Shown here in pieces: positions 2,775 through 60,597 of a DNA stretch of 64,000 nt; within the stretch, counting starts at the first letter, position 1; every line of letters starts with the position of its first letter. Made by a program: the position numbers and the translations under genes. A model generated the notes under the pieces. The model did no database searches. It was given only the letters and a program-made list of their open reading frames with translations, and was not told the origin of the DNA. This DNA comes from Treponema ruminis (GTDB lineage Bacteria; Spirochaetota; Spirochaetia; Treponematales; Treponemataceae). Location of the stretch: contig CP031518.1 of assembly GCA_017161305.1 (NCBI GenBank), positions 1,054,001 to 1,118,000 on the forward strand, given 5' to 3'.

Positions 2775-5471
2775 TTATTTTACTCCTTTTTGCCAGTTTT
2801 TGCTATCGAAAATATTATTTGTGACTGTGTACCAGTCTGAATCAGGAACGCTGAATGTGTAAAGTCCGTTCATGCCTGGAAGGAAGTTGTGTGTAATGAC
2901 AACTCCGCTTGCCTTTTTCTCACTAGAAGGAATTTTTTTGATTTCCTTGCCGGTGAAGGGATTTTTGGGCTTTTCGACAAGTCCTTCAAGAAGAAGGCTC
3001 GGAACGTCGGCATTTGTCATAAAATCTTCGTTTGTGACAGGCTGGCCGCTTGCTCCGAAATCCTTGTACATAAGGAGAGGCCAGTTGTGGTCAGGATTGT
3101 AATCATCTTCCCAGTCGCCTGTGAAATATTTTTCTTTTTGAGCGTCCTTTCCGATTCCATGATCTGCGACAATTATGATTCTTGTATTGTCATAGCAGTC
3201 ATTTGCCTTAAGATAATCAATCCATGAAGCGACTTTTTTGAACATGGCGATATTACCGGAAATGCTTGAATATGGAATAGGGCCTGTATCTGTTATTGTG
3301 ATTGCAGGTTCGTAATCAGGGGCCTGCAAATCCTGAGTTGAGTGAGTTGTGTCGTTTACGATAGTGAAATATTGATTTCCGCTGCCTGTAAAATCGGTCA
3401 GGCGGGGAAGATAAGCAAGGGCTGTGTAAAAATCAAGGAATTCCATGACGTCACTTGTGTTTTCATCGCTTGACCACCAGGCTCCGTCATCATAAACACT
3501 GTCACGCATGAAGCATGGAACGAATTTGAAAAGTGAGTACCATACGAGATTGCGCTTGATTGATTCGCTTGTGATGTTTGCCTTAACTTTGTCAGGATTT
3601 TCCTTGACCCAGAGGCTGGTGTATTTTCGCTCGACATTGAAGCCTTTGATTTTTGGATACTGATTTGTAATCGACATATCTGGAATCCAGCTGTAATTTG
3701 CCCAGCTCAAATCTGTTACGGTTGCGTTAAAATCTGCCTGCTCCGTAAAAATTCTAGGCAGGAGAAGAAGGGCTTCATTTTGTTTGTCAACGAGTTTTTC
3801 TTTACTGCGCTGGTTGATTTCGTAAGGCGTGTATTCATAGCCGCCATAAAGGGCTGGAGCACCGAGAAGGGTTCCCTGATTGAAGGAAATTGTATTCTTG
3901 AAATATGTAAAACCGGAAAAACTTTCTTTGAGTTCCGGAAATTCTTCGAAAATAGGCTCGAAATATGCCCCTTCGGCACGGTCGCTCATAATAAGGACTA
4001 CATTCTTGCCATTCTTGGAAAGATGATAAACCGGCGAAATTGATTCTTCTTCCGTGATTTTTGAGGCAATTTCTTTTTTGTAGGCGGAATATTCAGAATT
4101 AATTGATACTGAATTGACCACTGTGATTCCAAGGGAAGCGATGAGAATTATTGAAAGCGCTGTCTGTAAGATTTTCTGCTTTTTGAATTTTAAAAGAATC
4201 AAAGGAAGTAAAAGTGCTGCAATAACTGAGACAGTATTTAAGAGAGCATATGGAAGCGTTACTGAAGTTACAAGAGAGTCAAAAGTGATGAGTCGGGAAA
4301 GGGTACCATAATCTCCTGCAAAACAGAAGGCATCAACCAGGCAGGCAAAGAGAATTGATGAAAAGAAAAGTGCCATTGCTGTTTGAACCCGCTTATTAAA
4401 GAGAAAATAGATACAAATCGGCCAGAAAACAAGGAGACCCAGCATCTGCACCGTGGAATTGTAAAGGAAATAAAGAGGATTTCCGTATGTGTCGATATTT
4501 GCAAATTCAACCGGAGAAGAATTTATTACAAGGGATGGAAGGACGAAGCCCGCAAAGAAAGCAAGGGCAAGAGAAGATGTGAGGAAGATGCTGAATCTTG
4601 TCTTTTTGTGCTCTGTAAGCGGAGAGAAAACTGTGTCCAAAAGATAGGTCATGAATTTGACGGCAAGAGGAGTCAATAGCAAAATGCTTGCCGCAAAAAC
4701 AAGAATCAGGCGCTTGTGCAGCATTCCGTGGTGGTGGAAAAGCGCATAGTAATCTACGAAAAGAACTGCTGCCGCAAGAATAAAGTAAAGAACCTTTTTT
4801 GGATTTTTGATTTTATAGAAAACATTCTTTACGAGCGAGAAAACATTGTTCATAGTCCAGTAAAGGACGAGACCGCTTGGAGAATTGTAAAGTATTACAA
4901 GAAAAACAAGGGCCATTCCGTAAATTGTGAGTTTATCCTTGAATTTGAAGCCCTTTGTATAAATTGCACCTGCAATGATGTTGATTAAGGTCATCGCAAT
5001 CGGGAGGACATTTACCTTGAAGGAGCCGATTGAAAAAAGTGCGTCCTCAGCTCCCATATCGCGGATAAAGCCGAAAGAATATCCCCGCAAAACAGGAAGG
5101 TTTGAAAGGAATGAATAGGCGGCCATAAAGAAGGGCACTTGAATCAAAAGACCGAAAGAAGAACGCAAGGCCATAAGTGGATGGTAATGATTCTCTTTGT
5201 AAAAAGCCGAAAGAATCATATATTGCTCATCGCCTTTGAAAGTTTCCTTGATTCGCTTGATTCCCTTGTCGAGCCGTTTTTCCGTGTCGCGCTGAACCTG
5301 CTGCCAGCCTTCTGCTACGATGTAAAGAGGAAGACAGAGCACGGATACTGCGATACTTACTCCGATTACGGAAATACCTTCTTCCTTAAAAACGCTGTTG
5401 AAAAGAGAAAAAGAAAACTCAATTACCTGAATTAACGGATAAATTATTATTGTGTAAAGAAAATTTGCCAT
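2775..5471 (-). CDS. YidC/Oxa1-domain fused to alkaline-phosphatase-superfamily phosphotransferase (fusion copy 1)
   Basis: The protein has 898 aa. Residues 1-225 are a YidC/Oxa1-type insertase core, including LLIQVPFFMAAY at 108-119 and NSPSGLVLYW near 196-205. Residues 226-455 hold several further membrane segments. Residues 480-898 form a sulfatase/LTA-synthase-like ectodomain with D497, a candidate nucleophile T534, H710 and the VADHG ligands D770 and H771. The groove arginine of YidC is Ser here (S43). The ectodomain would face the periplasm and transfer or hydrolyse a phospho-type group; the YidC part may be a scaffold. It lies in the phosphonate operon, one base from fusion copy 2 upstream and 4 nt from the TagF-like gene downstream. 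This is not a normal YidC: the N-terminal periplasmic domain is missing and the C-terminal enzyme has been added. Confidence 0.85.
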   Translation of the reverse strand: MANFLYTIIIYPLIQVIEFSFSLFNSVFKEEGISVIGVSIAVSVLCLPLYIVAEGWQQVQRDTEKRLDKGIKRIKETFKGDEQYMILSAFYKENHYHPLMALRSSFGLLIQVPFFMAAYSFLSNLPVLRGYSFGFIRDMGAEDALFSIGSFKVNVLPIAMTLINIIAGAIYTKGFKFKDKLTIYGMALVFLVILYNSPSGLVLYWTMNNVFSLVKNVFYKIKNPKKVLYFILAAAVLFVDYYALFHHHGMLHKRLILVFAASILLLTPLAVKFMTYLLDTVFSPLTEHKKTRFSIFLTSSLALAFFAGFVLPSLVINSSPVEFANIDTYGNPLYFLYNSTVQMLGLLVFWPICIYFLFNKRVQTAMALFFSSILFACLVDAFCFAGDYGTLSRLITFDSLVTSVTLPYALLNTVSVIAALLLPLILLKFKKQKILQTALSIILIASLGITVVNSVSINSEYSAYKKEIASKITEEESISPVYHLSKNGKNVVLIMSDRAEGAYFEPIFEEFPELKESFSGFTYFKNTISFNQGTLLGAPALYGGYEYTPYEINQRSKEKLVDKQNEALLLLPRIFTEQADFNATVTDLSWANYSWIPDMSITNQYPKIKGFNVERKYTSLWVKENPDKVKANITSESIKRNLVWYSLFKFVPCFMRDSVYDDGAWWSSDENTSDVMEFLDFYTALAYLPRLTDFTGSGNQYFTIVNDTTHSTQDLQAPDYEPAITITDTGPIPYSSISGNIAMFKKVASWIDYLKANDCYDNTRIIIVADHGIGKDAQKEKYFTGDWEDDYNPDHNWPLLMYKDFGASGQPVTNEDFMTNADVPSLLLEGLVEKPKNPFTGKEIKKIPSSEKKASGVVITHNFLPGMNGLYTFSVPDSDWYTVTNNIFDSKNWQKGVK

Positions 5472-5472
5472 T

Positions 5473-8178
5473 TTAATCCTGTTTTGTATATTTTTCCCAG
5501 TTTGAATCGATAAAAATGTTGTCTTTTATATGAATCCAATCGTCATCGCTGAGAGTAAATTCATATTCACTCTTTGAATGGTACGGCATAAATATATCAC
5601 CTTTTGTGGCAATTATTCCACCGTTTTTATAATTTTCATCAATCGGATTTTTTGTGAATGGGTTTACTGGATTTTCAACAATTCCCTTGAGCGCAAGATA
5701 GGGGACATCCGCATTTGTCATAAATCTATCATCGATTTTTACAATCCCATTTGTATCAGAATTGAAATCCTTTACCAGAAGCACTGGATTTAAATGGTCT
5801 TTTTGATAGCCGTTGAATGACGGACTTTCAAATTTATCGATATCCCGGCCTATGCCGTGGTCAGAAACCACAATGATTTTAGTATTGTCGTAGATTCCCT
5901 GAGAGCGGAGATAATCTGCAAATTCAGCGATTTGAATCAAGGTGACTGTGTTTACCTTGTAACCGTCATCATTTATTGAATATGGATATTCTGGTTCGAT
6001 TGAGTACATTGAAATGTCTTCAAAGGCATGGGTACATTCATTCGTGAGGATTGATAATGTCGGTTTTGCAGAATTGACCTGCATGATTTCCGGCAAATAG
6101 TAAAGAATTGAATACCAGTTTACAAAGTCGCCGGCATTTTCCTGGACGCCATTTTCCCACCAGGTACCCTTGTAGTAGACGACAGCCCGTAAAATAGCTG
6201 GAACTTGGCGGAAAATACTAACCCAGAACAAATTTCGGTTGAGGACATGGCTCAAAGATGCCAAATCAAATCCAGCCTTAAGCTTTTCCCTTTTGAAATC
6301 GCCCGTGTAGTGGCCGAAAAGTGAAATTGCCTTTAAATTTTCCAGACCTGGATTTTCTGAAGCCGGGAAATTCTTTATAAAATTCATGTCGGCAATGTAA
6401 TTGTAATTTGCCCATGACAAATCTGATACAGTCGCAGAAAAACCCTGCTGGCACAAGAGTTTTGGGAGCAAAATCAGGGCTTCGTTGTGCTTGTCCTTGA
6501 GCTTGATGGAATTCCTTTTGTTCATTTCCATAGGCGTGTAATCAAAACCGCCGTACAGGCCTGGAGAACCCATGAGGGTATGACCGTTGAAACTCAAACA
6601 GTTAGGGTAAAATGTAAAGCCGTTGAGTTTTTGTGAAAGATTTTTCTGATCTTTAAGAATTGGCTCGATAAATGCAGATTCAAAACGGTCAAGCATAAAT
6701 ATAACTATGTTTGGCTGGGTTTTTGAAAGGGAGAATTTTGCAGTCTGGCTTGTACTTTGCGTGTGACTAGCGGCAAAAGCCTTGTATTCACTTGATATTT
6801 TGCTGGTGTTGATGAATGAAAGCACTATGAGGACTGAAAGAGTTGCAAGCAGGGCAAAATTCATGAATCTTGTTAATTTGATTTTTATGACGAAAATGAC
6901 CAGGACCAAAATTGCCGCAAGGGAGAGGATGTTAAGAAGCATGAAAATCTTTGACGGATTTACGAAGCCGTCAATAAAGCGGAGGGTTACATCCATTGAG
7001 CCGTAATTTCCGTTAAAAATGTAGGAATTTACGATTGCCCCCAAAAATGCTGCTGAGAAGAAATATGCAATCAGGGTTTGAAGTCTTTTCTGGAAAAGAA
7101 AATAAATACAGGCCGGCCAAAATACGAAAAAGCCGAAACTCATCCAGAATGATGAATGGAGAAAAGCGTTCGGACTTGTGTAATTTTCGATGTTTGAGAA
7201 TTCCTGTACTGAGCTTGTTATAAGCTGGGAAGGAAGTACAAGACCGGTTAAAATACAGAGGCCGAGTGAACTGAGTGCAAAAAGTGCAAAACGCAATTTT
7301 TTGTCGGTAAAAATAGAAGAAAAAGTCTTTTCAGAAAGATGTATAATAAGGCGGACATAATAGGGAAGAGGAATCCAGAAAAGAAGGAAGAATACTGCCG
7401 CAAGCCGTTTTTTGAGGTTGGCACCGCCATCATACAAAAAGAGGATGAAAAATGCCAGCAGGAGGATAGCCGAGACTGCGCAAAGATAAAGGATTTTGAG
7501 GGGATTTTTCATCTTGTAAAAGATGTTTTTTACGAGAGAAAAGATGTTGTTCATGGTCCAGTAAAGAACCAGGCCTGCCGGAGAATTATATAAAACTACG
7601 AGGAAAACAAGAGCCATTCCATAAATCTGGATTTTTTCTTTTATGGCATGTCCCCGCGAATAAATTGCACCAGAAATACAGTTTATCATGGTCATCAAAA
7701 TCGGAAGAATGTTTACGCTGAAGCTTCCGATTGTGAAAACTGAGTCAGCCTTTCCCATATCCTTTATGAAAAGAAAATCCCTTCCCTGTAAATCCGGCAG
7801 GGCAGAGAGTGTGTGGTATGCCGCAAGGAAAAATGGAATCTGAATCAAAATGCCAAAGCTTGAGCGCAGTGCCATAATGGGGTGGTAATGATTCTGACGG
7901 TAATAGGTGTTAAGCATCATGTACTGCTCGTCACCCTTGAAAGATTTTTTGATATGACTTACCCAGAAGCTCATTCTTTTTTGCATTGAGCGTTCTGTTT
8001 CCTGCCAGCTTTCTGCGATTATGTAGAGGGGGAGACAAAGTAATGTTACCGCAAGACTTACACCAAGAATCGCGATTCCAGTATTGTTGAACATTTTATT
8101 GAATACGCGGTAAGTGATTTCAATAATCTGTGTGATTGGAGAAAGAATTATGTCATAAAGAATTGTCGTAAAAGGCAT
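5473..8178 (-). CDS. YidC/Oxa1-domain fused to alkaline-phosphatase-superfamily phosphotransferase (fusion copy 2)
   Basis: The protein has 901 aa and is collinear with copy 1. The YidC-like core covers residues 1-228, with QNHYHPIMALRSS at 95-107 and LLYW-type ends near 205; the groove position is T45. Extra membrane helices occupy about 230-455. The ectodomain has D497 in FMLDRFES, candidate nucleophile T534 in SFNGHTLMG, the motif NECTH and VSDHGIG. All metal-site residues expected of an LtaS/EptA-like enzyme are therefore kept. It starts after a clear AGGGAAG ribosome site, 16 nt after the cytidylyltransferase stop, and abuts fusion copy 1, so the two paralogues are co-transcribed. Co-expression of two such enzymes suggests different substrates or positions, but neither substrate can be read from the sequence. 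Confidence 0.85.
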   Translation of the reverse strand: MPFTTILYDIILSPITQIIEITYRVFNKMFNNTGIAILGVSLAVTLLCLPLYIIAESWQETERSMQKRMSFWVSHIKKSFKGDEQYMMLNTYYRQNHYHPIMALRSSFGILIQIPFFLAAYHTLSALPDLQGRDFLFIKDMGKADSVFTIGSFSVNILPILMTMINCISGAIYSRGHAIKEKIQIYGMALVFLVVLYNSPAGLVLYWTMNNIFSLVKNIFYKMKNPLKILYLCAVSAILLLAFFILFLYDGGANLKKRLAAVFFLLFWIPLPYYVRLIIHLSEKTFSSIFTDKKLRFALFALSSLGLCILTGLVLPSQLITSSVQEFSNIENYTSPNAFLHSSFWMSFGFFVFWPACIYFLFQKRLQTLIAYFFSAAFLGAIVNSYIFNGNYGSMDVTLRFIDGFVNPSKIFMLLNILSLAAILVLVIFVIKIKLTRFMNFALLATLSVLIVLSFINTSKISSEYKAFAASHTQSTSQTAKFSLSKTQPNIVIFMLDRFESAFIEPILKDQKNLSQKLNGFTFYPNCLSFNGHTLMGSPGLYGGFDYTPMEMNKRNSIKLKDKHNEALILLPKLLCQQGFSATVSDLSWANYNYIADMNFIKNFPASENPGLENLKAISLFGHYTGDFKREKLKAGFDLASLSHVLNRNLFWVSIFRQVPAILRAVVYYKGTWWENGVQENAGDFVNWYSILYYLPEIMQVNSAKPTLSILTNECTHAFEDISMYSIEPEYPYSINDDGYKVNTVTLIQIAEFADYLRSQGIYDNTKIIVVSDHGIGRDIDKFESPSFNGYQKDHLNPVLLVKDFNSDTNGIVKIDDRFMTNADVPYLALKGIVENPVNPFTKNPIDENYKNGGIIATKGDIFMPYHSKSEYEFTLSDDDWIHIKDNIFIDSNWEKYTKQD

Positions 8179-8194: not shown

Positions 8195-8656
8195 TTATTT
8201 TCCTGTGTCTGCATCATTCGGAAAGTGGCTGTTGGCCTCCTGCTGCAACTTTTCGTAGCGCTCATATATGCGTTGCTTTAAATTGGTTGAGCTTATGCCG
8301 GCTCCGTAAGGGAAATAGACGACGTCAACGCCCTGTTCCTTTAGGTAGTCGTATTTTCCGGCCCAGTCATCTCCAACGACAAAAACGTCAAAGTTCAGCT
8401 TTTTTACCTTGTCCGCATGATTAAGTGAGTGCTGTGGAATAACTATGTCCGGGTACTTAAGGGCTTTTACAAGCGCGATTCTCTCATCGAAAGGAATAAT
8501 CGGCTGGCTCTTATAGCTTTCGACAAGCTCGTCAGTGTTTACGCCAACGATAAGAATGTCACCGAGGGAGCGGGCATACTCAATCATTTTTATGTGGTTT
8601 GCGTGGAGCATGTCAAATGTTCCGCTTGTATAGACTACTGTTTTACCTGCTATCAT
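8195..8656 (-). CDS. TagD-like CTP-dependent cytidylyltransferase
   Basis: The protein has 153 aa, the typical size of small cytidylyltransferases such as glycerol-3-phosphate cytidylyltransferase. It has GTFDMLHANH at 12-21 (the HxGH-type motif with both His residues kept), GDDW at 95-98 and GISSTNLKQRI at 120-130, the ISTT-like C-terminal signature. It would activate a phosphate or phosphonate with CTP in the cytoplasm. Candidate substrates are glycerol-3-phosphate (giving CDP-glycerol for the TagF-like enzymes) and AEP (giving CMP-AEP). It overlaps the transaminase stop in an ATGA junction, implying translational coupling, and has a GGGGG ribosome site. Because the cytidylyltransferase half of the PEP mutase fusion is degenerate, this may be the operon's working one. 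Confidence 0.85.
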   Translation of the reverse strand: MIAGKTVVYTSGTFDMLHANHIKMIEYARSLGDILIVGVNTDELVESYKSQPIIPFDERIALVKALKYPDIVIPQHSLNHADKVKKLNFDVFVVGDDWAGKYDYLKEQGVDVVYFPYGAGISSTNLKQRIYERYEKLQQEANSHFPNDADTGK

Positions 8657-9738
8657 AGGAGCCCCCTTTTGACTAAATCCCTGAATGCTGCTGTGAGAGT
8701 GTCAATCTCTTCGTTTGAAATTGAGCCGATATGTCCGACACGGAATACCTTTTCTGCCATGTCTCCGCCGTTCGGACAAATCCAGATTTTGTATTCGTCC
8801 TTTATGATTTCAAAAATTCTGTGTGCGTTTACGCCCTCTTTTGTTGGGCAGAGGGCCGTAACACAGTTTGATGAATCCTTTTCGTCTGAAAAAAGCTTGA
8901 ATGGAAGGTCTTTTATTGAAGATCTGAAATACTTAGCTCTTTCCCGGGCAAGTTTGTTCTGATTTTTGATTCCGCCGCCTGCTTCGATGCGCTTGAGTTT
9001 TTCGTTGAGCTGTAAAAGCGTGCCGACAGCTGGCGTAAATGGAGTCTGACCGCGCTGGCCATCTTTTAAATAAGCAGGATAGTTAAAATAGAGGCTCTTT
9101 ACATTTATTTTCTGGCAGCGTTCAATCGCCTTTTTGTCAAGGACTGTAAAGCTCATTGATGGCGGAAGGGCAAGTGCTTTTTGGCTTCCTGTTATTGCTG
9201 CGTTTACATGCATTTCCTTCATGGAAAAATAGTCCGCCATGAAGCCGCTTACAGCATCCACAAAAAGGAAGATGTCGTTGCGCTGGCAGAAATCGCCGAT
9301 CATATTCATATCGTAGAGAACACCGGTTGAAGTCTCGCACAGCTGGACTAAAAATCCTGTGTAGCCCTTTCCTTCAAATTGAGCTAGATGCTCCTTTGTT
9401 AAAGGCTTTCCGTAGTCTAACTTTATTTCTGTAAATGGAATCTCATGAATTTGGCAAAGTTCAACAAGGCGATGACCGAAACTTCCGCCATTTACGACGA
9501 GAACTTTGTCATCCTTGCTGAAGAAGTTCATCACACCGCCTTCCATTGAAGCTGTTCCCGAGCCGGTCATAAATACAAGGCGTGAACCTTCAGGTGCGTC
9601 AAAGAATTTACACAAAAGACTTTCATTTTCTTTCATTATGGAAGAAAATTCTGGAGTGCGAAAATATGGTATCTGTTCTTTTCCGAGTTCTCTGGTTTCT
9701 TCGTCCATCTGAACCGGGCCAACTGTGAAATTTATCAT
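8653..9738 (-). CDS. phnW: 2-aminoethylphosphonate-pyruvate transaminase
   Basis: The protein has 361 aa and is a fold-type I class V aminotransferase. VGPVQ near the N-terminus, MTGSGTASMEG at 57-67, the ETSTG element at 135-139, D161 in FVDAVSG and the PLP lysine K187 in GSQKALALPP all fit the AEP transaminase family. In a biosynthetic setting it aminates phosphonoacetaldehyde to AEP. The companion PEP mutase and phosphonopyruvate decarboxylase genes are in the same operon, which argues for synthesis rather than degradation. It overlaps the upstream TagF-like gene and the downstream cytidylyltransferase by ATGA-type junctions. Related alanine-glyoxylate transaminases are an alternative by fold, but the pathway context favours AEP. 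Confidence 0.88.
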   Translation of the reverse strand: MINFTVGPVQMDEETRELGKEQIPYFRTPEFSSIMKENESLLCKFFDAPEGSRLVFMTGSGTASMEGGVMNFFSKDDKVLVVNGGSFGHRLVELCQIHEIPFTEIKLDYGKPLTKEHLAQFEGKGYTGFLVQLCETSTGVLYDMNMIGDFCQRNDIFLFVDAVSGFMADYFSMKEMHVNAAITGSQKALALPPSMSFTVLDKKAIERCQKINVKSLYFNYPAYLKDGQRGQTPFTPAVGTLLQLNEKLKRIEAGGGIKNQNKLARERAKYFRSSIKDLPFKLFSDEKDSSNCVTALCPTKEGVNAHRIFEIIKDEYKIWICPNGGDMAEKVFRVGHIGSISNEEIDTLTAAFRDLVKRGLL

Positions 9739-10970
9739 TTTGAAGCCTCTGCCAAAGATTTTTCTTTTTCAATCAAATAGTCAGCGATTAATTTTGCGCT
9801 TTCGCCCGGGTGCATCCATGCCTCTTTTCTTGCCTGGTCACGGCCTGCCTTGAGCGAAGAGTCCTTTAATGCCTCTTTAATTACAGATTTCATTTGATCA
9901 AACTGATCTTCTTTTAAAGGAAGACCGATTTTTTCAAGAACTTTGAAGCGCCAGAGTTTTTCGTCTTTGAACCAGGCTGCATCGTAAATTCCAGGATCAA
10001 ATTTTGTATCTGCGTAAATTAGAGGCTTGTCAAAAAGAAGGGCAAAGTCAAAAATAATTCCTGAGAAATCAGTAATCAAAATTGAAGCCTTGTTCATGCA
10101 GTCAAAATTGTCGTTGTCAAAATTCCAGTTGAAATTTTCACTTTCCGGGAATTCCTTCATCAGGGAATCCAGCATTTCTTTTTCACTAGTCCTGGTCTGC
10201 GGATGAGGGCGGACAATTATTTTCCAGCCAGTCTTTTGAATGGCTTTAAGAAAATCTGAACCGAATTTGGAAAGAATTGCCTCTTTTCCCCAGCTTGGAG
10301 CAACGAGAATTGTGATTTCAGAATCTTCTGTCTTTTGCAAGGAAGTCAAGCGATTTTTCTGCTCGTCCATTGGCGGATAACCGACCGTGACGAGTTCTTT
10401 AGCTGGAAGATTGCGCATTTCTTCAAGCCTTCGTATATATTCTCCCTGAAAATCACCTGTCAGAAGAACAGAGTCGTAGTAATCAAGTCCGAACATGCGG
10501 TAGCCCATCATCTCATCCAGTGAGTGTGGAATGTGTACGTAATATTTGCAGGCCTTGCTGCGCTTCCATTGGAGGACTGAAAGCCCGGGCGTGGTGGAAA
10601 GACAGATGTCCGCGTTTAGGAAATTAAGCTTTGCAAAAGCTCGGTTTCCTTCGCCGATGAATTCTGTCTTTACATATTCAAACTTCTCTGACAGGGCCGG
10701 ATCGTCTTCGCTTTGAGTGTAATAGGTAAGCGGAAACCTGCGTTTTTCAAATTCACGGGCAATTGGAGCAAATACATTCCAGTAGCGTTTTGAATCAGAA
10801 TAAATGACAATTCCGAGTTTTGATTTGTCGAGTTCTGTTCGCTTTCCAAAACTTATTGTGGTTTTGATTTTTATGACAAGTGCACGAATTGCGAATACGG
10901 AAGTCATGGCAAGTCCGATAAGGATTGAGAACAACATGCTTCCTGTTCCTGGATCAATATACAAAAGCAT
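9735..10970 (-). CDS. TagB/TagF-like CDP-glycerol glycerophosphotransferase family protein, copy 2
   Basis: The protein has 411 aa and parallels copy 1 at 1508-2770. It begins with YIDPGTGSMLFSILIG and a membrane helix, followed by a GT-B-like domain with RPHPQ and TDFSGIIFDFALLFDKP. It should transfer a phospho-alditol or phosphono group from a CDP/CMP donor at the inner face of the membrane. It is the first gene of the long minus-strand operon ending beyond base 1, and its last codons overlap the transaminase start. The ATG at 10970 was chosen because it aligns with the N-terminal motif of copy 1. There is no clear ribosome site before it. The retention of two diverged TagF-like genes suggests a priming and an extending enzyme, or two different substituents. 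Confidence 0.8.
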   Translation of the reverse strand: MLLYIDPGTGSMLFSILIGLAMTSVFAIRALVIKIKTTISFGKRTELDKSKLGIVIYSDSKRYWNVFAPIAREFEKRRFPLTYYTQSEDDPALSEKFEYVKTEFIGEGNRAFAKLNFLNADICLSTTPGLSVLQWKRSKACKYYVHIPHSLDEMMGYRMFGLDYYDSVLLTGDFQGEYIRRLEEMRNLPAKELVTVGYPPMDEQKNRLTSLQKTEDSEITILVAPSWGKEAILSKFGSDFLKAIQKTGWKIIVRPHPQTRTSEKEMLDSLMKEFPESENFNWNFDNDNFDCMNKASILITDFSGIIFDFALLFDKPLIYADTKFDPGIYDAAWFKDEKLWRFKVLEKIGLPLKEDQFDQMKSVIKEALKDSSLKAGRDQARKEAWMHPGESAKLIADYLIEKEKSLAEASK

Positions 10971-16663: not shown

Positions 16664-16672
16664 GTAATGAGT

Positions 16673-17992
16673 ATGAAAAAAATTCATGTTCTGCTCAAGA
16701 TTATTGCTTTTACGGTGATTTTCTTCCTTCTTACGATTCCACTGGCTTTTTTGCTAAAAGATGATGCGAATTCCTATGCCCGCTCGCTTTTTTATGAATT
16801 CTATAGGCAGGAAAAAATTGATTATCTTATTTGTGGTGCTTCTCATGTTTCCCATGGAGTTGAGGCAAACATAGCTTCTCAAAAATTTGGAAAGAGCGTT
16901 TTCAATACAGGGACGCCTTCTCAAAAAATTGACGGAACTTATGCGATTCTCAAGCAGGCTGTGAAACTTTATAAAATAGAAAAAGTCTTTTTAGAACTGG
17001 ATTTTGCCATTACTTGTGCACCAGCTTTTTTTGAAAGAACTGGATTGACTTCTGAATATATTGTTGCAAGCCGTATTAAGGATTTTTCTATCAAAATTGA
17101 TTATCTACTAAACTGTTCTTCTCCAAAACATTATTTCAATTCTTTTTTGCCTATTGGAAAAGACAAGTTGATAACATTAAATCCATCTTTACTGGCAGAA
17201 AAAATAATATCTCTTATTGCCGGTGAATATTTTAAGGGAACATATCACTCTGATGACGCTGAATATTCGGGTAAAGGGTGTCTTCTTGATCTGGATGAGG
17301 TGATAAATGGTGGTTTTTCAAATTATTCTAAGGAAGGAATAATACAAGTTTCTAAAATTACCGACGACTGGAAAAACACTGTTGATAAAATCATAGAGCT
17401 TTGCCGGGAAAATGACATCGAACTGATTCTTTATTCAATGCCCTGTTCTGATTTTTACCTGAATGAGCGCGGAAACTACGATGAATATTATTCTTTCTGC
17501 AGGAATTTTACTTCTGAGCGTGGTTTTACATATTATGACTTTAACCTTGCACGGCCGGATTTATTTTCTGCTCTTGATTCAGACTATTATGACGACAATC
17601 ATTTTAACAAAAAAGGCGTGTATAAGTGGACTGATTGTTTCTGTGACTTTTTCTCCGCCAAATATATTGAAGAAAACAACCTTGAAAAGTATTTCTATTC
17701 TTCTTATGCCGAAAAAATGGCGGCTCAGCTTGACAGAATCTTCGGCCTTTACATGATTACAAGCGACGACAAAAAATCAATGGAAATCATTCCCCTGGCA
17801 AATCATGTAGCCTCAAATCGCATTACTTACGATGTTTACGCAGTCTGTGGAAGCGAGAAAATGCTCCTTGCAAAGAATTCAAGTCAAACTACTGTTGAGC
17901 TTCCTGCTGGAAAATCTGGAAAAATCCGAGTGATCAGCTACATGGACGGTATTAAACAGAACGACTGTTCGGAAAATTTCGCTTCATTCTAG
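16673..17992 (+). CDS. DltD/AlgX-like SGNH-fold membrane-anchored protein
   Basis: The protein has 439 aa from the ATG at 16673; the ATG at 16667 fits the promoter less well. Residues 5-28 are a membrane anchor. An SGNH-hydrolase-like domain follows, with the nucleophile motif GASHVSHG (Ser near 57) and a C-terminal DDNHFNKKG matching the catalytic Asp-x-x-His block. About 110 residues follow that block, ending in a possible small beta domain. Proteins of this kind partner MBOAT acyltransferases, as DltD and AlgJ/AlgX do, and handle acyl or aminoacyl esters on extracytoplasmic polymers. The MBOAT gene begins 14 nt downstream, so the two form a pair. The family is inferred from motifs and context; overall similarity to Gram-positive DltD cannot be judged here. 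Confidence 0.7.
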   Translation: MKKIHVLLKIIAFTVIFFLLTIPLAFLLKDDANSYARSLFYEFYRQEKIDYLICGASHVSHGVEANIASQKFGKSVFNTGTPSQKIDGTYAILKQAVKLYKIEKVFLELDFAITCAPAFFERTGLTSEYIVASRIKDFSIKIDYLLNCSSPKHYFNSFLPIGKDKLITLNPSLLAEKIISLIAGEYFKGTYHSDDAEYSGKGCLLDLDEVINGGFSNYSKEGIIQVSKITDDWKNTVDKIIELCRENDIELILYSMPCSDFYLNERGNYDEYYSFCRNFTSERGFTYYDFNLARPDLFSALDSDYYDDNHFNKKGVYKWTDCFCDFFSAKYIEENNLEKYFYSSYAEKMAAQLDRIFGLYMITSDDKKSMEIIPLANHVASNRITYDVYAVCGSEKMLLAKNSSQTTVELPAGKSGKIRVISYMDGIKQNDCSENFASF

Positions 17993-18006
17993 TTTTGGAG
18001 AATAAT

Positions 18007-19570: not shown

Positions 19571-19792
19571 TTACTGAAGGCGTTCAATCATTGCCCAGAT
19601 TGAGTCGGCGGAGTTGAAGTTTTCCGGAGTGATTTCTTCTGCGCCGATTTCAATGTCGAATTCTTCGTTAAGTTTCATTACGAGCTGAACGACATCAAAT
19701 GAGTCGAGCACACCGTTGTCAATCAATGCCTTTTCTGTAGAAAAATCAACTTCCGGCTTTGCTTCCTTTAAGATTTCTAATAATTCATCCAT
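19571..19792 (-). CDS. Acyl/aminoacyl carrier protein (DltC-like)
   Basis: The protein has 73 aa and is acidic and helical, with the phosphopantetheine attachment motif GVLDSFDVVQL (Ser31). The LDSF context is typical of D-alanyl carrier proteins and of small stand-alone carrier proteins. It should carry an aminoacyl thioester from the adenylating enzyme encoded just upstream to the MBOAT. It starts 15 nt after the adenylation gene stop with a GGAGA site spaced 6-7 nt from the ATG. Its 3' end faces the MBOAT gene 10 bp away, so the four dlt-like genes are adjacent but on opposite strands. The amino acid carried is assumed, not shown. Confidence 0.85.
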   Translation of the reverse strand: MDELLEILKEAKPEVDFSTEKALIDNGVLDSFDVVQLVMKLNEEFDIEIGAEEITPENFNSADSIWAMIERLQ

Positions 19793-53748: not shown

Positions 53749-56559
53749 TTATTTTATAATTCTTGTCCAGTTTGATTCATCAAAAATATTGTCATGCACT
53801 GTATATGACGGTGTATGATTTTTTTCATCCTGTAAAACCCATGTTTTTTTATCACGAAGATAGTTTGGATTTATTTCATCAAAATCCGACAAACGTACAA
53901 TATGATGAATATTGACAATGTCTTTTTTGATGTAATCTGAATATTTCTGATTTGTAAAAGGATTATTTTCAGAAACAGGAAGATTTTTTGTTGCTAAAAA
54001 TATTGTATCAGCATTCGTCATAAAAGAGTCATCGGTTTTTATTTTGCCTTTCGCATAAAAATCCTTAAACATAAAAAGAGGGTTGTAACGAGCTATATCT
54101 TCTCCATATTCCATATTCCGAAACGGTGGCAATGATAAGGGGGCCCCATGATCAGCAACAATGATAATTCTTGTATTGTCGTATACGGAAAGTTCTTTTA
54201 ATTTATTAAGCCATTTTGCGACTTGAAGCATAGTTGCCGCATTTGAGTGATAGGCAGCTAAATCACTTGATTCTTCTGAAGAGGGAAGATATTTAAAATC
54301 ATAATATCCGCCAGTTGCTAAATTTTCATTAATATTTAGCGCTGGCTTATATGTTTTATTTTCAAGCAGTGCAAATTCGTGGGTTGCATCACTTTCTATA
54401 AAAATATATGATTCCTTTTTATTTTCAGAATCTGTAAGTTCATCTAAAAAGAATAAATGTGCGTAATTAGAGAGAAAGCCATCATTTGTGACACTGCTTA
54501 AAATTTTGGGAATTTCATCACGATAGTATTCTCCAAAATAATAAAATGTAAATCTTAGTAGCGGAGGCAAAAACTCAAGTATAGTAAACGACTGCAGATT
54601 AAATTTTACGCATTTATCAAGTTGTAAATTTTTTAACTCTGGATGTTGAGCCAGATATTTTTCTTTGTAATTGCTATGAACTTCGCTTACATGAATTTCT
54701 GGAAATCTTTGGAAAAATGAAAAATCTCCTTGCCATGAATAGTTTGGCATTGGCGGATCTGTTACAGTAACATCAAATCCAGCATCTAAAAACAATTTTG
54801 GTAGAAACAAAGATGCTTCATTGTGTTTATCTTTTAATAATTCGTCAGCCCGGAGATTTTCATTTTCTGGGGTGTATTCATATCCGCCCATAAGTGCAGG
54901 TGCTGCTTTTGCTGTATTTCCTGCAAATGATACTGTATTCGGATAATACACAAATCCTGAAAATTGGTCTTCCATTTCAGGAAACTCTTTTACTATATAT
55001 GGGAAAAAAGAAGATACTGCCTTATCAAGAAAAATAACAACTACATTCTTTTTATCTTTAGAAAGATGATAAATCGGTGTAATTGTATTATCCTTATTAG
55101 TTGCCAATTGTTCTCTTTCGGTGCGAGTTTTTGCATATTTTTCATATTCTCTTTTTATCGCCATGGTATTTTTTATTCCCATAGCAAATTCAGCAATGCA
55201 GAGAATAAAAAGAGAGTAGAAAATATATTTTTGAGCTTTAAAACGTTTTGAAATTCCGATTAAAACAAAAATCACAGAAAATACAAATATCGGTAGAACA
55301 GTAAAAAACGGTGTATATTTTTTAAGGCATTTTGTATCTTCAAGCTGGAAAAATATACTGAAATTTCCATAATTATACTTAAAGACAAAAACATTAAGTA
55401 GTGCTAGAAAAAAAACAGCAATATATATATATGATACAGTTTCCTTGACTTTTGAATCGAACAATTTATAAATAACAAGTGGCCAAAAGAAAAATAGGCC
55501 AATAAAAAAAGATAAACTTGAAAAAATATATACAAGAGGGGACTGAGTATTTCCTATAAAACTAAACTCAATCGGACTTGTATTAATAATTCCAGAGGGA
55601 ATTAAAAGACCTGTGAGCAATACAAGTCCGATTGTTGAAAGTATAAAACAATGGAACAGGGAATCTTTCTCAGGAAAGTTAGTTTTTACAAAACAGAATT
55701 TTCTCTTTTTTATGAAACTAAAACATATTGGACTCAAAAGAACTGCAAATGCAAGAAGTAAAACAGAAAGACGCTTTACAATGTTGTATCTAGGGTTTAA
55801 CAGAATAACACAGCTTGCTATCAGAAGAATTGCAGAAATAACTTTGTGAACAAGTTTTGCGGGATTTTTTACTTTTGAATTTACTAGATTTTTAAAAAGA
55901 GAGAACAAATTATTTAAAATCCAATAACAAACTAAACCTGAAGGTGAATTATAAAGAATATAAAGAAAGAGCAGTGCGAGTCCATATAATTGGATTTTTT
56001 CTTTTAAAGGCGCCTTTTTAAGATAGATTGCACCAGAAATAAAATTTATGAAAGTCATTACGACTGGGAGAATATTAAAACTATATGCTATTCCATTAAA
56101 TGAAATTTTTAACAGTCCATCAGGAGTTCCTAAATCGCCAAGAAAAGCAAAACTTGCCCCTTGCAGGGAACTTGAATGTGAAAGAAACTGGTATGCAGCA
56201 ATAAAAAATGGAATTTCGATAAGGATTGAAAGTGAACTTCGTAATGAATAAATTGGATGATAATGATTTTCAGCATAAAGAGCCTGAATCATCATGAATT
56301 TTTCATCCCCCTTGAAGGTATGCTTTATTCTTGCTAATTGTTTTTGCAATTTAAGCTGAAGATTTCGTTCTTTTTCCTGTAATCTGTCGGCAATATTGTA
56401 AAGTGGTAATGCCAGAAAATTTACAGCAAGACTTACTGCAAGAATAGCGCCGGCGATACCACCAACAGCAATTTTTGATTTATAGAAACAAAATACCCAT
56501 TCGATAATCAGTTCAATAGGAGCAATTATTATGTTGTAAATAAAACCAAAGAAAGTCAT
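53749..56559 (-). CDS. YidC/Oxa1-domain fused to alkaline-phosphatase-superfamily phosphotransferase (fusion copy 5)
   Basis: The protein has 936 aa, the longest of the six. The YidC-like core covers residues 1-235, with N47 at the groove-arginine position, ENHYHPIYSLRSS and LIEIPFF, all shared with copy 3. Extra membrane helices follow. The ectodomain has VVIFLDKAVSSFF (metal Asp), candidate nucleophile Thr in SFAGNTAKAAP, SDATHEF (His) and VADHGAP (Asp-His). Coding sequence here is more AT-rich than in the first operon. A -10-like TAAAAT lies exactly 6 nt before the ATG, with no ribosome site, so it may be expressed separately from the GT4 gene 49 bp upstream. The substrate is unknown. Confidence 0.85.
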   Translation of the reverse strand: MTFFGFIYNIIIAPIELIIEWVFCFYKSKIAVGGIAGAILAVSLAVNFLALPLYNIADRLQEKERNLQLKLQKQLARIKHTFKGDEKFMMIQALYAENHYHPIYSLRSSLSILIEIPFFIAAYQFLSHSSSLQGASFAFLGDLGTPDGLLKISFNGIAYSFNILPVVMTFINFISGAIYLKKAPLKEKIQLYGLALLFLYILYNSPSGLVCYWILNNLFSLFKNLVNSKVKNPAKLVHKVISAILLIASCVILLNPRYNIVKRLSVLLLAFAVLLSPICFSFIKKRKFCFVKTNFPEKDSLFHCFILSTIGLVLLTGLLIPSGIINTSPIEFSFIGNTQSPLVYIFSSLSFFIGLFFFWPLVIYKLFDSKVKETVSYIYIAVFFLALLNVFVFKYNYGNFSIFFQLEDTKCLKKYTPFFTVLPIFVFSVIFVLIGISKRFKAQKYIFYSLFILCIAEFAMGIKNTMAIKREYEKYAKTRTEREQLATNKDNTITPIYHLSKDKKNVVVIFLDKAVSSFFPYIVKEFPEMEDQFSGFVYYPNTVSFAGNTAKAAPALMGGYEYTPENENLRADELLKDKHNEASLFLPKLFLDAGFDVTVTDPPMPNYSWQGDFSFFQRFPEIHVSEVHSNYKEKYLAQHPELKNLQLDKCVKFNLQSFTILEFLPPLLRFTFYYFGEYYRDEIPKILSSVTNDGFLSNYAHLFFLDELTDSENKKESYIFIESDATHEFALLENKTYKPALNINENLATGGYYDFKYLPSSEESSDLAAYHSNAATMLQVAKWLNKLKELSVYDNTRIIIVADHGAPLSLPPFRNMEYGEDIARYNPLFMFKDFYAKGKIKTDDSFMTNADTIFLATKNLPVSENNPFTNQKYSDYIKKDIVNIHHIVRLSDFDEINPNYLRDKKTWVLQDEKNHTPSYTVHDNIFDESNWTRIIK

Positions 56560-56608: not shown

Positions 56609-57799
56609 TTATCTAATTACATATTCTGCAAGTTTCTTCAAATCTTCTTTCTGCTTTTTAGCTACAATTTCATAACGAAGCTTTGCTTTATATACGAGTT
56701 CATCATAAATTTGTTGTTCCAAAAGCTGAACGAGACGATTTTTGATTTCTGAAACAGAATAGGGATCGAAATATAGTGCTGCATCACCACATACTTCTGG
56801 AATTGATGTTGAGCCACTTGCGGCAACCGGAACTCCGTATTTCATGGAATCAATCGGCGGGTACCCAAAACCTTCGTTTAAGGATGGGTAGATGAAAGCG
56901 TATGCCTGTTCTGTGAGCAAGTCAAGAAAATCACGCTCAACATATCCTAAGAAAACAAAACGGTCTGCATGCTTCAATTCTTTTGTAAAAATACTTTTGT
57001 TTGTAACGCCAGTGATGACTGCCTTAAAGTCTTGTGCAAATCCGTTTTCAAAGAGTTCGTCCAAAGCACGCACCGCACGGAGTGCATTTTTTGCCCAGCG
57101 GGCAGCACTCGTAATCAGAAAATATTTTTTTTCGCAGAGTTTTTCTTTGTGAAGCTCGTCGATAGAAAGTTTTTTGCTCTCTGCAACTGGATTATAATTA
57201 TCCAATTGATCAAAAGTAGGGGATGCAAAGACCGGAATATTTCGTCTTGCTGTCTCTGGATAAAAACTCTTGATTGAAGCTGCCGAATGGTTGGAAATCG
57301 TAATTACATTGATTCTTTCGTCTGTTACAAGACGTCCATTTATAGTATGCAGCTTTTTAAGGTAGTAATTTTTTGCTACCCCCATAAAAAGGCGATATTT
57401 GAGCTTTTCTTTGAAAGAAGAAGCATATTCCAGCATTATCGGATCAAATGGCATTTCCAGAGTGCGCAGTCCATGTACTGTCGTGTAAACTTCGATAGTT
57501 CCCAGCGGAATGTTCTGGTTCAAGTTGAGCATGGCAGAGTAGAGCCTGTCGATTTTTTCTTCTTCGATAATTTGAGTAATGGATTTTTCTGTGATGTCGT
57601 AAAGTTTAATTCCATGCGTCTTTATTCGCTCAAGGATATCCGGATTTATGTAATTTTTGCTGTCGTAATAACAAACAAGTCTAAAATCTTTGAGATATTC
57701 TAAAAGCTTGAAAAAAAGGACTTCGCCGTAAGCTCCGCCACCGTGAAAACGGCTTTCTGGAGAAGGTTGTGTTGCTGTGAGGTCGTAAAGTAAAGTCAT
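56609..57799 (-). CDS. Glycosyltransferase family 4 (group 1) protein
   Basis: The protein has 396 aa. The N-terminus has a glycine-rich acceptor loop (RFHGGGAYGE at 17-26). The C-terminal GT-B half has FLGYVERDFL followed by YPSLNEGFGYPPIDSMKYG and the E-x7-E pattern of GT4 enzymes, ending in AASGSTSIPEVCGDAALYFDP. It should add a sugar from an NDP-sugar to a lipid-linked glycan at the inner face of the membrane; donor and linkage are unknown. It is sandwiched between two YidC-transferase fusions on the same strand, 20 nt after copy 6, which ties the fusions to glycan assembly. A TAAAAT box (57806-57811) lies exactly 6 nt before the ATG with a poor -35. Confidence 0.85.
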   Translation of the reverse strand: MTLLYDLTATQPSPESRFHGGGAYGEVLFFKLLEYLKDFRLVCYYDSKNYINPDILERIKTHGIKLYDITEKSITQIIEEEKIDRLYSAMLNLNQNIPLGTIEVYTTVHGLRTLEMPFDPIMLEYASSFKEKLKYRLFMGVAKNYYLKKLHTINGRLVTDERINVITISNHSAASIKSFYPETARRNIPVFASPTFDQLDNYNPVAESKKLSIDELHKEKLCEKKYFLITSAARWAKNALRAVRALDELFENGFAQDFKAVITGVTNKSIFTKELKHADRFVFLGYVERDFLDLLTEQAYAFIYPSLNEGFGYPPIDSMKYGVPVAASGSTSIPEVCGDAALYFDPYSVSEIKNRLVQLLEQQIYDELVYKAKLRYEIVAKKQKEDLKKLAEYVIR

Positions 57800-57819: not shown

Positions 57820-60597
57820 TTATCGAATTTTTTTCCAGTTATCCTGATTAAAAATATTACCGCCTATTTCAAACGAAATATTATTTGATATATCGTATAT
57901 TTCAAATCCATCGGCTTTTGTTGTTACTTTATCAAAACTTACAAAGCGCTTTCCTCCCCAGCGGCCAGAATAATCATAAACATAATAAGGAAATACTCTG
58001 CTTGGATGTAGAGTTTCATTGCTATATGGATTTTTAGCTTGCTTTCCATCTGAAAAAAGATGTTGTGTTGCAATGTATGGAATATCTGCATTTGTCATAA
58101 AAGTATTGTCAGTTTGTATATCATAAAAAGCATTAAAGTCTTTAACTAAAAGAAGTGGATTAAACGCTCCTGCGATATTGTTCTCTTTAAAAGAAAAAGC
58201 TGAAAATGGCCCTTTTCTTGTATAACCGTGGTCTGCAACTATAATAATTTTTGTGTTATCATAAACCCCTTCTTTTCTAAGATAGTCAAAAAAACTTCCT
58301 AATTTTAGAATAGTTGCAGCATTCACTTGATAAGTTTGTATCTCTTCCGTACTTGAAACAGAAAAAGAACCTGTATCACCAGTTTTTGTACTGCTTGGAA
58401 TATCATAGTTTGGTGAAGAAAGAAAAGCTTCATGATGAGGGGTGCTGTTATATACCATGCAATAAGTTCCAGCATTATTATTTTCAATACTGAATAAATT
58501 CGGTAGATACTCTAGTTCTGCATATTCAGTCAGAAAATCGTCCATAGAACTTATTGGGGTTCGTGTTGCACAAAAATATTCGCCAGAATCATAAAATGGC
58601 ATTCTTATGTGTAAAGGAGCAATTAAAAAAAGTGAATATGATATAAAACGTGCGGGCATTGATGCATAAACGGCAGTTGATAGATGTCTATCATCAAAAA
58701 ATTTCTGTTTAAGTTGCTGTTTCAATTTTTCTCCGTTGAAGGCCATTGTATTTGGAATATCAGCAAATACTTTCGGATCACTTGAAACATCAGAAAAGGT
58801 TGGAGTGTCCAATAAATATGATTTTAAGCCTACATCGCTGAAAATCTTAGGGATAACTTTTGTTCCTTCATTCCAATATTCTTTAAAATTAGGAGATCTT
58901 TTTCTCTCAAAAATTGCTTTTGGTGTATATTCATAGCCACCGTAAATCGGCAAAATACCTCCGTTTGTGGAGCCTGAGAAACTTATTGTATTCGGAAAGT
59001 ATGTGAACCCTTTATATTGTTCCTCAAGTTTTGGAAATTGCTCTACTACGTACGGAAAATACCAGTTTATAGCCCTGTCGCACAAAATTAAAATTACATT
59101 CTGACCTGTTTTTGAAAGACATAGTTTGAATTGTTCTGCAGTATCAGTCTGGGAATTTTGAACTTTCTCCAATGCAGAATATGCTGTATTAATCGATTTG
59201 ATTTTTACAACTCCCATTCCTACAAGTGACAAGCAAATTATCGAATAAAAAACTGAGAGAAGTTTTAGCCGACTTTTTTTGAGCAATGTTAAAAATACAA
59301 CAAATAATACAACAACGGTAATAAAATAAGGAAACTGCATTTTTCTTACAAATGCGTTGTATGAGTCCTCAACTATATTAAAATCTACATATTCAAGCAT
59401 TGGCGTAAGAGTACCAATATAAGTGAAGAATACGAATGCATCTAAAAGTCCCATCGCAAAAATGAGAGCTGAAAAAATTGAAAGGATCCATCTTTTACTT
59501 TTTTCCAAAAGAAAATAGAAAAGTCCACACCATACACCAAAGAGTCCAGAAAAAAATAATAGAGAAGTAAAAACAAATTTTACAGGATTTTCAAAACCTT
59601 TCAATATATTTGAAAATTCCTGCGGACTTGAACTAATTACATTTGCCGGTAAAACCAGTCCCAAAAGAAGTGAAAGCCCAAATATACTTGTTAGAAAAAG
59701 AATAAAACTATGTTTTTGTCCAATAGATATATTTTCTAAAGTTTTTCTAAAAAATGTTTTGTTTTTTATCACAAAAAAGGGAATACCTGTTACTAGTAAG
59801 AATGTAAATAAACATATAAGTTTTTCAGGTAAATCTGAAATGTCAGTTATTGTTGAACGGATAAAAAGCACATACATTAGTGTTATAAAAAGTATCGTTG
59901 TACATAAAAAATAAAATGAGCGTAAGGGATTTTTTGTTTTATTTATGATGTTTTTTACAAGTGAATACACATTGTTCATAGTCCAGTAGATAACGAGTCC
60001 GCTAGGTGATGTGTACAAAAGAACAAGAAATATAATTGCTGTTATGTAAATCGGCATTTTTTCTTTAAGTGAAAATCCTTTTGTATATATAGAACTTGCA
60101 AAAATATTAATTACAGTCATCAATACTGGCAGGACATTCAGCTGTAATGTTCCGATTTTATATAAACTATCAGGTTTTGAAAAATCTTTTATCCAAAAAA
60201 ATCCTTGCCCATTCAAAGATTCGAGATTAGAAAGAAAATGATATGCCGCAATAAAAAATGGAATTTGAATTATGATTCCGATGGATGAACGCAGTGCCAT
60301 TATTGGGTGATAATGATTTTCACTGTAATATGCCATAAGCATCATATATTGTTCATCACCGGTGAATGTCTTTTTTATGCGGGCAATTTGGGCTTTCATT
60401 TTGTTTTGTATACTTCTTTCTTCCTGACTTTGCTTTTCTGCAAGGTTATATAAAGGCAGTGTAAGAAGTGTAATTAATGTTGAAACTCCAGCAAGTGCAA
60501 AAAATGGAGAATGAAAAAGGCGAAAGAAGAATTCATAAGAAATGTCAAATATAAATTCTAGAGGATAAATGAAAAACTGATAGAAATAATAAGACAT
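57820..60597 (-). CDS. YidC/Oxa1-domain fused to alkaline-phosphatase-superfamily phosphotransferase (fusion copy 6)
   Basis: The protein has 925 aa. The YidC-like core covers residues 1-225, with T43 at the groove-arginine position, ENHYHPIMALRSS, IIIQIPFF and TSPSGLVIYW. Middle membrane helices run to about 460. The ectodomain has ILILCDRAINWYF (metal Asp), candidate nucleophile Thr in SFSGSTNGGI, NSTPHHEAF (His) and VADHGYT (Asp-His). It is the most divergent copy around the nucleophile, where the usual APALYGG becomes ILPIYGG. A weak -10 (TATACT at 60608-60613) lies 10 nt before the ATG. The DUF6492-like gene ends 52 bp upstream, and the GT4 gene follows 20 nt downstream. Confidence 0.84.
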   Translation of the reverse strand: MSYYFYQFFIYPLEFIFDISYEFFFRLFHSPFFALAGVSTLITLLTLPLYNLAEKQSQEERSIQNKMKAQIARIKKTFTGDEQYMMLMAYYSENHYHPIMALRSSIGIIIQIPFFIAAYHFLSNLESLNGQGFFWIKDFSKPDSLYKIGTLQLNVLPVLMTVINIFASSIYTKGFSLKEKMPIYITAIIFLVLLYTSPSGLVIYWTMNNVYSLVKNIINKTKNPLRSFYFLCTTILFITLMYVLFIRSTITDISDLPEKLICLFTFLLVTGIPFFVIKNKTFFRKTLENISIGQKHSFILFLTSIFGLSLLLGLVLPANVISSSPQEFSNILKGFENPVKFVFTSLLFFSGLFGVWCGLFYFLLEKSKRWILSIFSALIFAMGLLDAFVFFTYIGTLTPMLEYVDFNIVEDSYNAFVRKMQFPYFITVVVLFVVFLTLLKKSRLKLLSVFYSIICLSLVGMGVVKIKSINTAYSALEKVQNSQTDTAEQFKLCLSKTGQNVILILCDRAINWYFPYVVEQFPKLEEQYKGFTYFPNTISFSGSTNGGILPIYGGYEYTPKAIFERKRSPNFKEYWNEGTKVIPKIFSDVGLKSYLLDTPTFSDVSSDPKVFADIPNTMAFNGEKLKQQLKQKFFDDRHLSTAVYASMPARFISYSLFLIAPLHIRMPFYDSGEYFCATRTPISSMDDFLTEYAELEYLPNLFSIENNNAGTYCMVYNSTPHHEAFLSSPNYDIPSSTKTGDTGSFSVSSTEEIQTYQVNAATILKLGSFFDYLRKEGVYDNTKIIIVADHGYTRKGPFSAFSFKENNIAGAFNPLLLVKDFNAFYDIQTDNTFMTNADIPYIATQHLFSDGKQAKNPYSNETLHPSRVFPYYVYDYSGRWGGKRFVSFDKVTTKADGFEIYDISNNISFEIGGNIFNQDNWKKIR

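Follow-up and report, generated by a model that had tools for sequence, protein, structure and literature searches.

Six fusions of a YidC/Oxa1 core to an alkaline-phosphatase-superfamily ectodomain in Treponema ruminis: a candidate flip-and-transfer family for envelope polymers

Here we describe six genes located within a 64,000-nucleotide stretch of the Treponema ruminis genome (contig CP031518.1, positions 1,054,001 to 1,118,000; hereafter the window), each encoding a protein in which a YidC/Oxa1 core (residues ~1-220) is followed by seven more helices in the membrane and, in the periplasm, by a domain of the alkaline phosphatase superfamily (~487-898). Such fusions had been proposed in a sequence-only reading of this DNA, and all six open reading frames (ORFs), of 898-936 amino acids (aa), are indeed present: fusion 2 (P0002, 898 aa; 2775..5471, minus strand), fusion 3 (P0003, 901 aa; 5473..8178, minus strand), fusion 1 (P0001, 903 aa; 11099..13810, plus strand), fusion 4 (P0004, 898 aa; 13879..16575, minus strand), fusion 5 (P0005, 936 aa; 53749..56559, minus strand) and fusion 6 (P0006, 925 aa; 57820..60597, minus strand). 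Fusion 1, which shares 44% identity with P0005, is the sole plus-strand copy, and its mechanically delimited ORF starts at position 11060 with TTG.

All six proteins were assigned by profile searches, and P0002 (YidC core 1-220; seven transmembrane (TM) helices 224-471; ectodomain 487-898) also by a predicted model and a fold search. The PF02096 (60KD_IMP) profile matched residues 32-226 in all six (70.5-83.7 bits; cut-off 35). The scores of PF00884 (Sulfatase) were weaker (19.4-31.0 bits), exceeding the cut-off of 25 in three of the six, and the doubt that this raised was removed for the family by the fold search performed with the P0002 model. Both domains are therefore real by profile and by fold, as the sequence-only reading had anticipated: neither an N-terminus foreign to the YidC/Oxa1 fold nor an ectodomain unrelated to the alkaline phosphatase superfamily was found.

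The model, built from a 64-sequence alignment with P0002 as the first sequence, had a mean predicted local distance difference test score (pLDDT) of 89.9 and a predicted template modelling score (pTM) of 0.80. It begins with a single helix, after which come the five helices of YidC, two of a linker and five more before the ectodomain; the placement of these helices in the membrane is our own putative assignment. The N-terminus of the model matches YidC structures (Foldseek TMt of 0.71 against 3wo7; 3.7 Å over 211 columns against 6al2; 3.6 Å over 219 alignment columns against the YidC of Bacillus halodurans), and its C-terminus matches structures of PbgA, EptA, LtaS and sulfatases. A topology with 12 TM segments was predicted for the fusions. 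Among 121 distinct sequences, the six predicted inside loops contain 0.17-0.34 Lys+Arg per residue, compared with 0.01-0.16 in the five outside loops (the two ranges almost touch at one short loop), and this distribution of charge places the ectodomain outside. The seven middle helices, when folded alone, gave a confident model with no clear relative in the PDB, so an LtaS-type label for this middle part would not be justified; the sole hint in that direction is one PbgA match that spans residues 283-897 of P0002, but at 14 Å.

The YidC half is altered in its groove. In a HMMER alignment of P0002 with 3wvf, residue 43 lies opposite R366 of Escherichia coli YidC, and W205 opposite Y517. According to passages of PMC8920935, the positive residue of the groove is strictly conserved in YidC. 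In the fusions the corresponding position is neutral-polar in all of the 121 distinct sequences examined (T 46, N 38, S 37), of which the main alignment was obtained by retaining 118 of 130 fusion-like ORFs (870-980 aa). The same was true (N, S or T) of 22/22 distinct proteins from an independent set of 23 retrieved by queries other than the YidC-loop patterns, the 23rd being cut off at this point. Of 30 housekeeping YidCs of spirochaetes (the best 30 from 57 genomes with a match), 28 have K at the equivalent residue and the other two have R. The genome of T. ruminis, represented by a one-contig assembly estimated as 81% complete, contains, as judged with PF02096, the six fusions and one ordinary YidC (614 aa frame, 201 bits; G000:C1:38927-39532), which has Lys in the groove. 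It may be added that in spirochaete housekeeping YidCs as such (L086:864-2708, minus strand, and L112-L141) the groove charge is mostly Lys, not Arg (28/30).

Two further residues, N164 and N208, are present in 121/121 fusions, at positions occupied in insertases mainly by Q/S/T and Q/M, respectively. A tree with one housekeeping YidC as its root grouped the YidC halves from 54 fusions (53 distinct) in one clade, apart from the 30 housekeeping proteins (support 0.75, branch length 1.36). The YidC half thus differs from the housekeeping insertase in lacking the conserved groove charge and in carrying a conserved signature of its own, which refines the sequence-only reading. We also rejected the idea that the fusions carry ordinary extra copies of YidC, in view of their groove residue and of their clade apart from the insertases. 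They possess the five-TM fold of the Oxa1 superfamily and lack the positive groove residue, a defining feature of the insertases, and for this reason we have not classified them as YidC insertases.

As judged from the alignment, conservation within the fusion is highest in the YidC half, with a mean Jensen-Shannon (JS) value of 0.60, compared with 0.29 in the linker, 0.37 in TM8-12 and 0.46 in the ectodomain; 53% of its columns exceed a JS value of 0.6, compared with 25% in the ectodomain. Within this half, the means are 0.69 for TM2, 0.70 for TM5 and 0.64 for the cytoplasmic loop 59-97, the last value being inflated because the scan used two peptide patterns lying in this loop. A degenerate membrane anchor was rejected as an explanation of the YidC half, since this is the most conserved region of the protein.

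The ectodomain is likewise marked by invariant residues. D497, T534, H710 and D770 are present in 121/121 distinct fusions and H771 in 120/121, while all five were found in 23/23 further distinct copies from other spirochaete genomes. Residues 699-785 align (HMMER) with positions 188-272 of the LtaS chain, and we take H710 to be the counterpart of LtaS H416, and D770-H771 that of D475-H476. The active-site roles, i.e. Thr as the nucleophile and the D and D-H residues as metal ligands, are presumably those of LtaS. LtaS and EptA employ a Thr nucleophile, and sulfatases do not; with Thr, not Cys or Ser, at position 534 in all of the 121 and 23 sequences, a formylglycine sulfatase was rejected. 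The ectodomain has the outward-facing alkaline phosphatase fold, the Thr nucleophile and the D/D-H ligands typical of LtaS/EptA-type enzymes, and the LtaS-type classification would apply to this domain only. A relative from an order outside the spirochaetes (L108:1120-3444, plus strand) retains the ectodomain, but its N-terminus is shortened, does not match PF02096 and shows by eye no cytoplasmic hairpin; it represents a natural variant whose YidC half is reduced.

The fusions are associated with genes for TagF-like (Glyphos_transf) transferases. The first of these (1508..2770, minus strand; PF04464, 39.2 bits, cut-off 22.1) is separated by 4 bases from fusion 2, and the second (9735..10970, minus strand) scored 45 bits; their matches cover only positions 145-364 and 148-293, respectively, of the 367 in the profile. 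A search of the whole genome with PF04464 revealed just these two, both in the left cluster (1508-10970). The claim that the fusions always lie near TagF-like, dlt-like or glycosyltransferase genes therefore holds loosely, the TagF-like genes being restricted to this cluster. The first TagF-like protein gave no PDB match up to an E value of 0.1. Members of this family have an N-terminal IDPGTGS segment, which may serve as a membrane anchor, and RPHPQ and DFS motifs in at least 95% of 74 aligned sequences. TagF-like enzymes use groups activated with cytidine diphosphate.

The association extends far beyond this genome. Among 59 genomes, including that of T. ruminis, fusions (whose presence was read by eye) and PF04464 proteins occur together in 30 and are both missing from 25, with two genomes containing only fusions and two only PF04464 (Fisher p 3.6e-12). 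The two fusion-only genomes are 71% and 83% complete assemblies, and of the two PF04464-only genomes one encodes a full-profile TagF and the other a short frame close to the end of its contig. In the retrieved loci, 103 of the 136 distinct full-length fusions lie no more than 5 kb from a TagF-like gene; this gene is immediately downstream in 54 cases and immediately upstream in 11, on the same strand in both (64 fusions in all), and another fusion is downstream of 23 of the 136. The median gap in the 57 adjacent fusion/TagF-like pairs is -4 bases, with 39 pairs overlapping and 53 lying within 20 bases.

Fusions and TagF-like proteins also diverged together. In 48 pairs, all from loci of the genome_contigs scan (one genome each for 84,980 species), their distances correlated with a Mantel r of 0.725, a value reached in 0/2000 shuffles, although correlations of this kind are inflated by the shared ancestry of the genomes. 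When the fusion was divided into parts, the TagF-like protein correlated best with the YidC half (0.77), followed by the middle (0.65) and the ectodomain (0.61); ectodomain columns selected to match the rate of the YidC half still yielded 0.60, and the difference to the YidC half had a bootstrap interval of 0.07-0.25. Shared ancestry would not be expected to act on the two halves of a single protein differently. This closer co-divergence of the YidC half provides the best indication that the TagF-like protein works with that half.

The operon also encodes a pathway for an activated phosphonate. From 10970 the minus-strand order is TagF-like 2, a class V aminotransferase of the PhnW/AepZ kind (8653..9738; TIGR03301, 165.9 bits, below the cut-off of 360.8), a stand-alone GCT/TagD-like cytidylyltransferase (8195..8656; TIGR01518, 113.8 bits, below the cut-off of 165.4), fusions 3 and 2, TagF-like 1, and a phosphoenolpyruvate (PEP) mutase fused to a cytidylyltransferase-like domain (193..1494; TIGR02320, 388.7 bits, cut-off 319.55), which would catalyse the first phosphonate step. 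Next past the window edge is a phosphonopyruvate decarboxylase (TIGR03297, 432 bits), and this region also contains a MobA-type nucleotidyltransferase fused to an aminoethylphosphonate (AEP) transaminase (TIGR03301, 379 bits), glycosyltransferases and a WbaP-type sugar-phosphate transferase (TIGR03022, 413 bits). The three enzymes of the AEP pathway, i.e. the mutase, the decarboxylase and the transaminase, all exceed their curated cut-offs. The aminotransferase/cytidylyltransferase pair at 8195-9738 (minus strand) falls far below the curated AEP and glycerol-phosphate cut-offs, and its product may be another kind of activated amino head group.

Elsewhere, other head-group pathways adjoin the fusions: nucleotidyltransferases fused to class I aminotransferases, and genes of the heptose-nucleotide type. 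AEP is thus one option and not the rule; relatives of the PEP mutase account for 14 members of the neighbour clusters across 93 loci, a few of which are duplicated. In one locus (L043:5326-7217, plus strand), SIS isomerase and nucleotidyltransferase-HAD genes lie directly upstream of the fusions, and a GHMP kinase gene is similarly placed in another (L066); we take this set to resemble that for GDP-heptose.

Taken together, the gene linkage and the fused architecture lead us to propose, tentatively and with somewhat less than even confidence, that the fusions represent a machine which flips head groups and transfers them to an envelope polymer, the flipping step, the donor and the acceptor being putative. 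A TagF-like protein would load a carrier lipid in the inner leaflet of the membrane with a phospho- or phosphono-head group (here plausibly AEP, from its cytidine monophosphate (CMP)-activated form, CMP-AEP). The YidC half, with its neutral-polar groove, would then move the head group, still linked to the lipid, across to the outer leaflet, where the Thr of the ectodomain would attack it and pass it to a polymer or glycolipid on the outside. The six copies may serve different head groups or acceptors. The passage of lipids through the YidC half is chemically credible, since lipid scrambling in vitro has been reported for YidC and further insertases in a preprint (PMC10491306). Delivery of phospho- or phosphono-groups had been suggested in the sequence-only reading; the operon does encode an activated-phosphonate pathway, and transfer to a polymer would be in accord with the ectodomain chemistry and the gene neighbourhood. 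In a more far-reaching version, which we consider doubtful, a branch of YidC/Oxa1 would have left protein insertion and become a one-chain flippase-transferase, a dedicated conduit for phosphate or phosphonate head groups on lipids, docked to the TagF-like protein and used for teichoic-acid-like decoration of spirochaete envelopes.

Several observations weigh against such a machine. LtaS/EptA-type enzymes take ordinary phospholipids as donors, so that the TagF-like protein need not feed the ectodomain. The ectodomain may also work without the YidC half, since the relative L108 has no PF02096 match. There are six fusions and two PF04464 genes in this genome, none of the latter beside fusions 5 and 6, and 72/136 distinct fusions (some of them at contig ends) have no adjoining same-strand TagF-like gene. 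Moreover, the co-divergence statistic ignores the species tree. Loss of the groove charge is not proof of lost insertase activity, since E. coli YidC R366A still complements according to passages of PMC8920935. The fusions retain an aromatic residue, W205, at the 517-equivalent site; the same source reports that in the YidC2 of Streptococcus mutans, with Trp at that site, the groove Arg is essential.

The alternative that survives best, although we regard it as unlikely, is an LtaS/EptA-like transferase fed by phosphatidylglycerol or phosphatidylethanolamine, in which the YidC half would act as a general scramblase or stabiliser and the TagF-like protein would be a mere neighbour making another part of the polymer. 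It agrees with the donors usual for enzymes of this type, but would leave unexplained why the presence of fusions and PF04464 coincides in 55/59 genomes, why 39 of the 57 adjacent pairs overlap, and why the YidC half co-diverges with the TagF-like protein more than the ectodomain does.

With a still smaller probability, the YidC half would be a docking platform and not a conduit, its cytoplasmic loop holding the TagF-like protein at the membrane and coupling the inner and outer steps in space. The high conservation of loop 59-97 and the tracking of the TagF-like sequence by the YidC half fit this well; however, TM2 and TM5 are as conserved as the loop, and N164 and N208 are invariant, none of which a dock alone would need. 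Furthermore, the conservation of the loop was partly selected by the scan patterns, and one sporadic relative has no loop.

It is improbable that the ectodomain is a phosphodiesterase or phosphatase trimming phospho-groups off the polymer, a role that its superfamily would permit, given the invariant Thr in place of a formylglycine Cys/Ser and the many copies adjoining genes for head-group synthesis, which fit building better than removal. It is about as improbable that the YidC half still works as an insertase or chaperone, serving only its own transferase half or membrane enzymes encoded nearby: the fold is kept (as in the comparison with the B. halodurans protein) and a neutral residue in the groove is tolerated by the E. 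coli protein (PMC8920935), but the positive charge is absent from every copy examined (121 and 22), a separate housekeeping YidC with Lys is encoded in the same genome, and the fusions form one clade on a long branch.

YidC/Oxa1 proteins are known as protein insertases, and the fusions represent a natural and widespread family in which the hallmark charge has been lost. If the proposed flip-and-transfer function is correct, they would provide a testable case of an Oxa1-superfamily member whose job concerns lipids or glycans and not protein insertion, and they are candidates for explaining how an outer-face transferase obtains its donor. We know of no described protein of the YidC-transferase kind, and no such system was found in the open literature, the search having covered neither subscription papers nor database architecture pages. 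As far as we could find, the parts are known, and their combination and the charge-less YidC branch are not described.

With the YidC/Oxa1 insertases the fusions share the five-helix core, the first helix along the membrane and the cytoplasmic helical hairpin (as modelled), as well as P48, W205, N209 and D143; they differ in having no positive groove residue, in carrying seven more helices and an enzyme, in being multi-copy here and in their linkage to TagF-like genes. Like LtaS, LtaP, EptA and PbgA, they are anchored in the membrane and expose on the outside an ectodomain of the same fold, in which the nucleophile position is occupied by Thr and the metal site by D/H residues, but they start with a YidC domain and two extra helices and are linked to TagF-like genes. 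The proposed scheme of inner lipid loading, a flippase and an outer transferase decorating a polymer resembles transmembrane glycosylation of the CsbB-GtcA-YfhO type, as described in parts of PMC8035078; here, however, the flippase and transferase would form one chain with YidC and alkaline phosphatase folds, and the group would be a phosphate or phosphonate head group. As in the Pnt clusters with PntC described in PMC6697681, the genes for the PEP mutase-cytidylyltransferase, decarboxylase and nucleotidyltransferase-AEP transaminase adjoin. That paper establishes the formation of CMP-AEP, calls the tailoring that follows C-P bond formation enigmatic and does not settle how CMP-phosphonates are used; neither YidC nor TagF occurs in its main text. 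The fusion family is thus a candidate for the later steps, in which CMP-AEP would be used in surface tailoring.

Relatives of the fusions are common in spirochaetes. A model of the second half matched 51 of 247 sampled Spirochaetota genomes (a count of genomes, not copies, with at most four candidates scored per genome); 49 matches were strong and two were weak and partial (E 1e-17 to 1e-19), probably representing other sulfatases, which makes 49/247 the safer count. Most of the frames are of ~860-1030 aa, i.e. fused, and a few are shorter or broken. The genome_contigs scan yielded at least 528 relatives, of which the best 80 were taken and 77 loci kept, mainly from Treponema and other Spirochaetia, with named strains including Treponema bryantii, T. 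lecithinolyticum and Breznakiella homolactica. Outside the phylum the occurrence is sporadic (4/200 in the order of a 'Clostridia' genome, one of the four being a fragment at a contig edge, and 2/57 in the class of a 'Myxococcales' genome, the starting genomes included) and may reflect misbinning, since the taxon names are labels of metagenome-assembled genomes. In a relative from the same family (L095:10708-20000, plus strand), several fusion genes are in pieces (frames of 221, 664, 367, 578, 340 and 257 aa) beside intact ones, as a result of decay, assembly error or variation.

The remaining genes of the window include a dlt-like group beside fusion 4. It comprises a DltB-like MBOAT acyltransferase (17995..19560, plus strand; TIGR04091, 167.7 bits, below the cut-off of 375), a DltC-like acyl carrier protein of 73 aa (19571..19792, minus strand; NF003464, 43.7 bits, below the cut-off of 68, with PF00550 over its cut-off) and a DltA-like adenylation enzyme (19808..21319, minus strand; NF003417, 336 bits, below the cut-off of 476). 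These genes, each below its NCBIfam cut-off, suggest that the polymer may also be aminoacylated. A 441 aa protein (16667..17992, plus strand) takes the place of DltD beside DltB, a label given by position only; it has no family or PDB match, and its relatives occur near fusions at 6/93 loci. A search of PHROGs gave no match for P0002, TagF-like 1 or the 441 aa protein.

Fusions 5 and 6 (53749-60597) sit among GT4 and GT2 glycosyltransferase genes, one of which, a GT4 gene (56609..57799, minus strand), lies between them. The fusion groups are separated by two giant plus-strand ORFs (24826-36477 and 39410-53629; 3883 and 4739 aa) with traces of bacterial Ig-like domains, which likely encode surface proteins, and between these giant genes two ORFs of the PDDEXK_2 transposase family adjoin each other (36672-37751 and 38033-38989, minus strand). 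The G+C content of the segment carrying fusions 5 and 6 and the glycosyltransferase genes (52001-64000) is 0.30-0.34, compared with 0.39-0.44 in the remaining window, which may mean that this segment is of separate origin.

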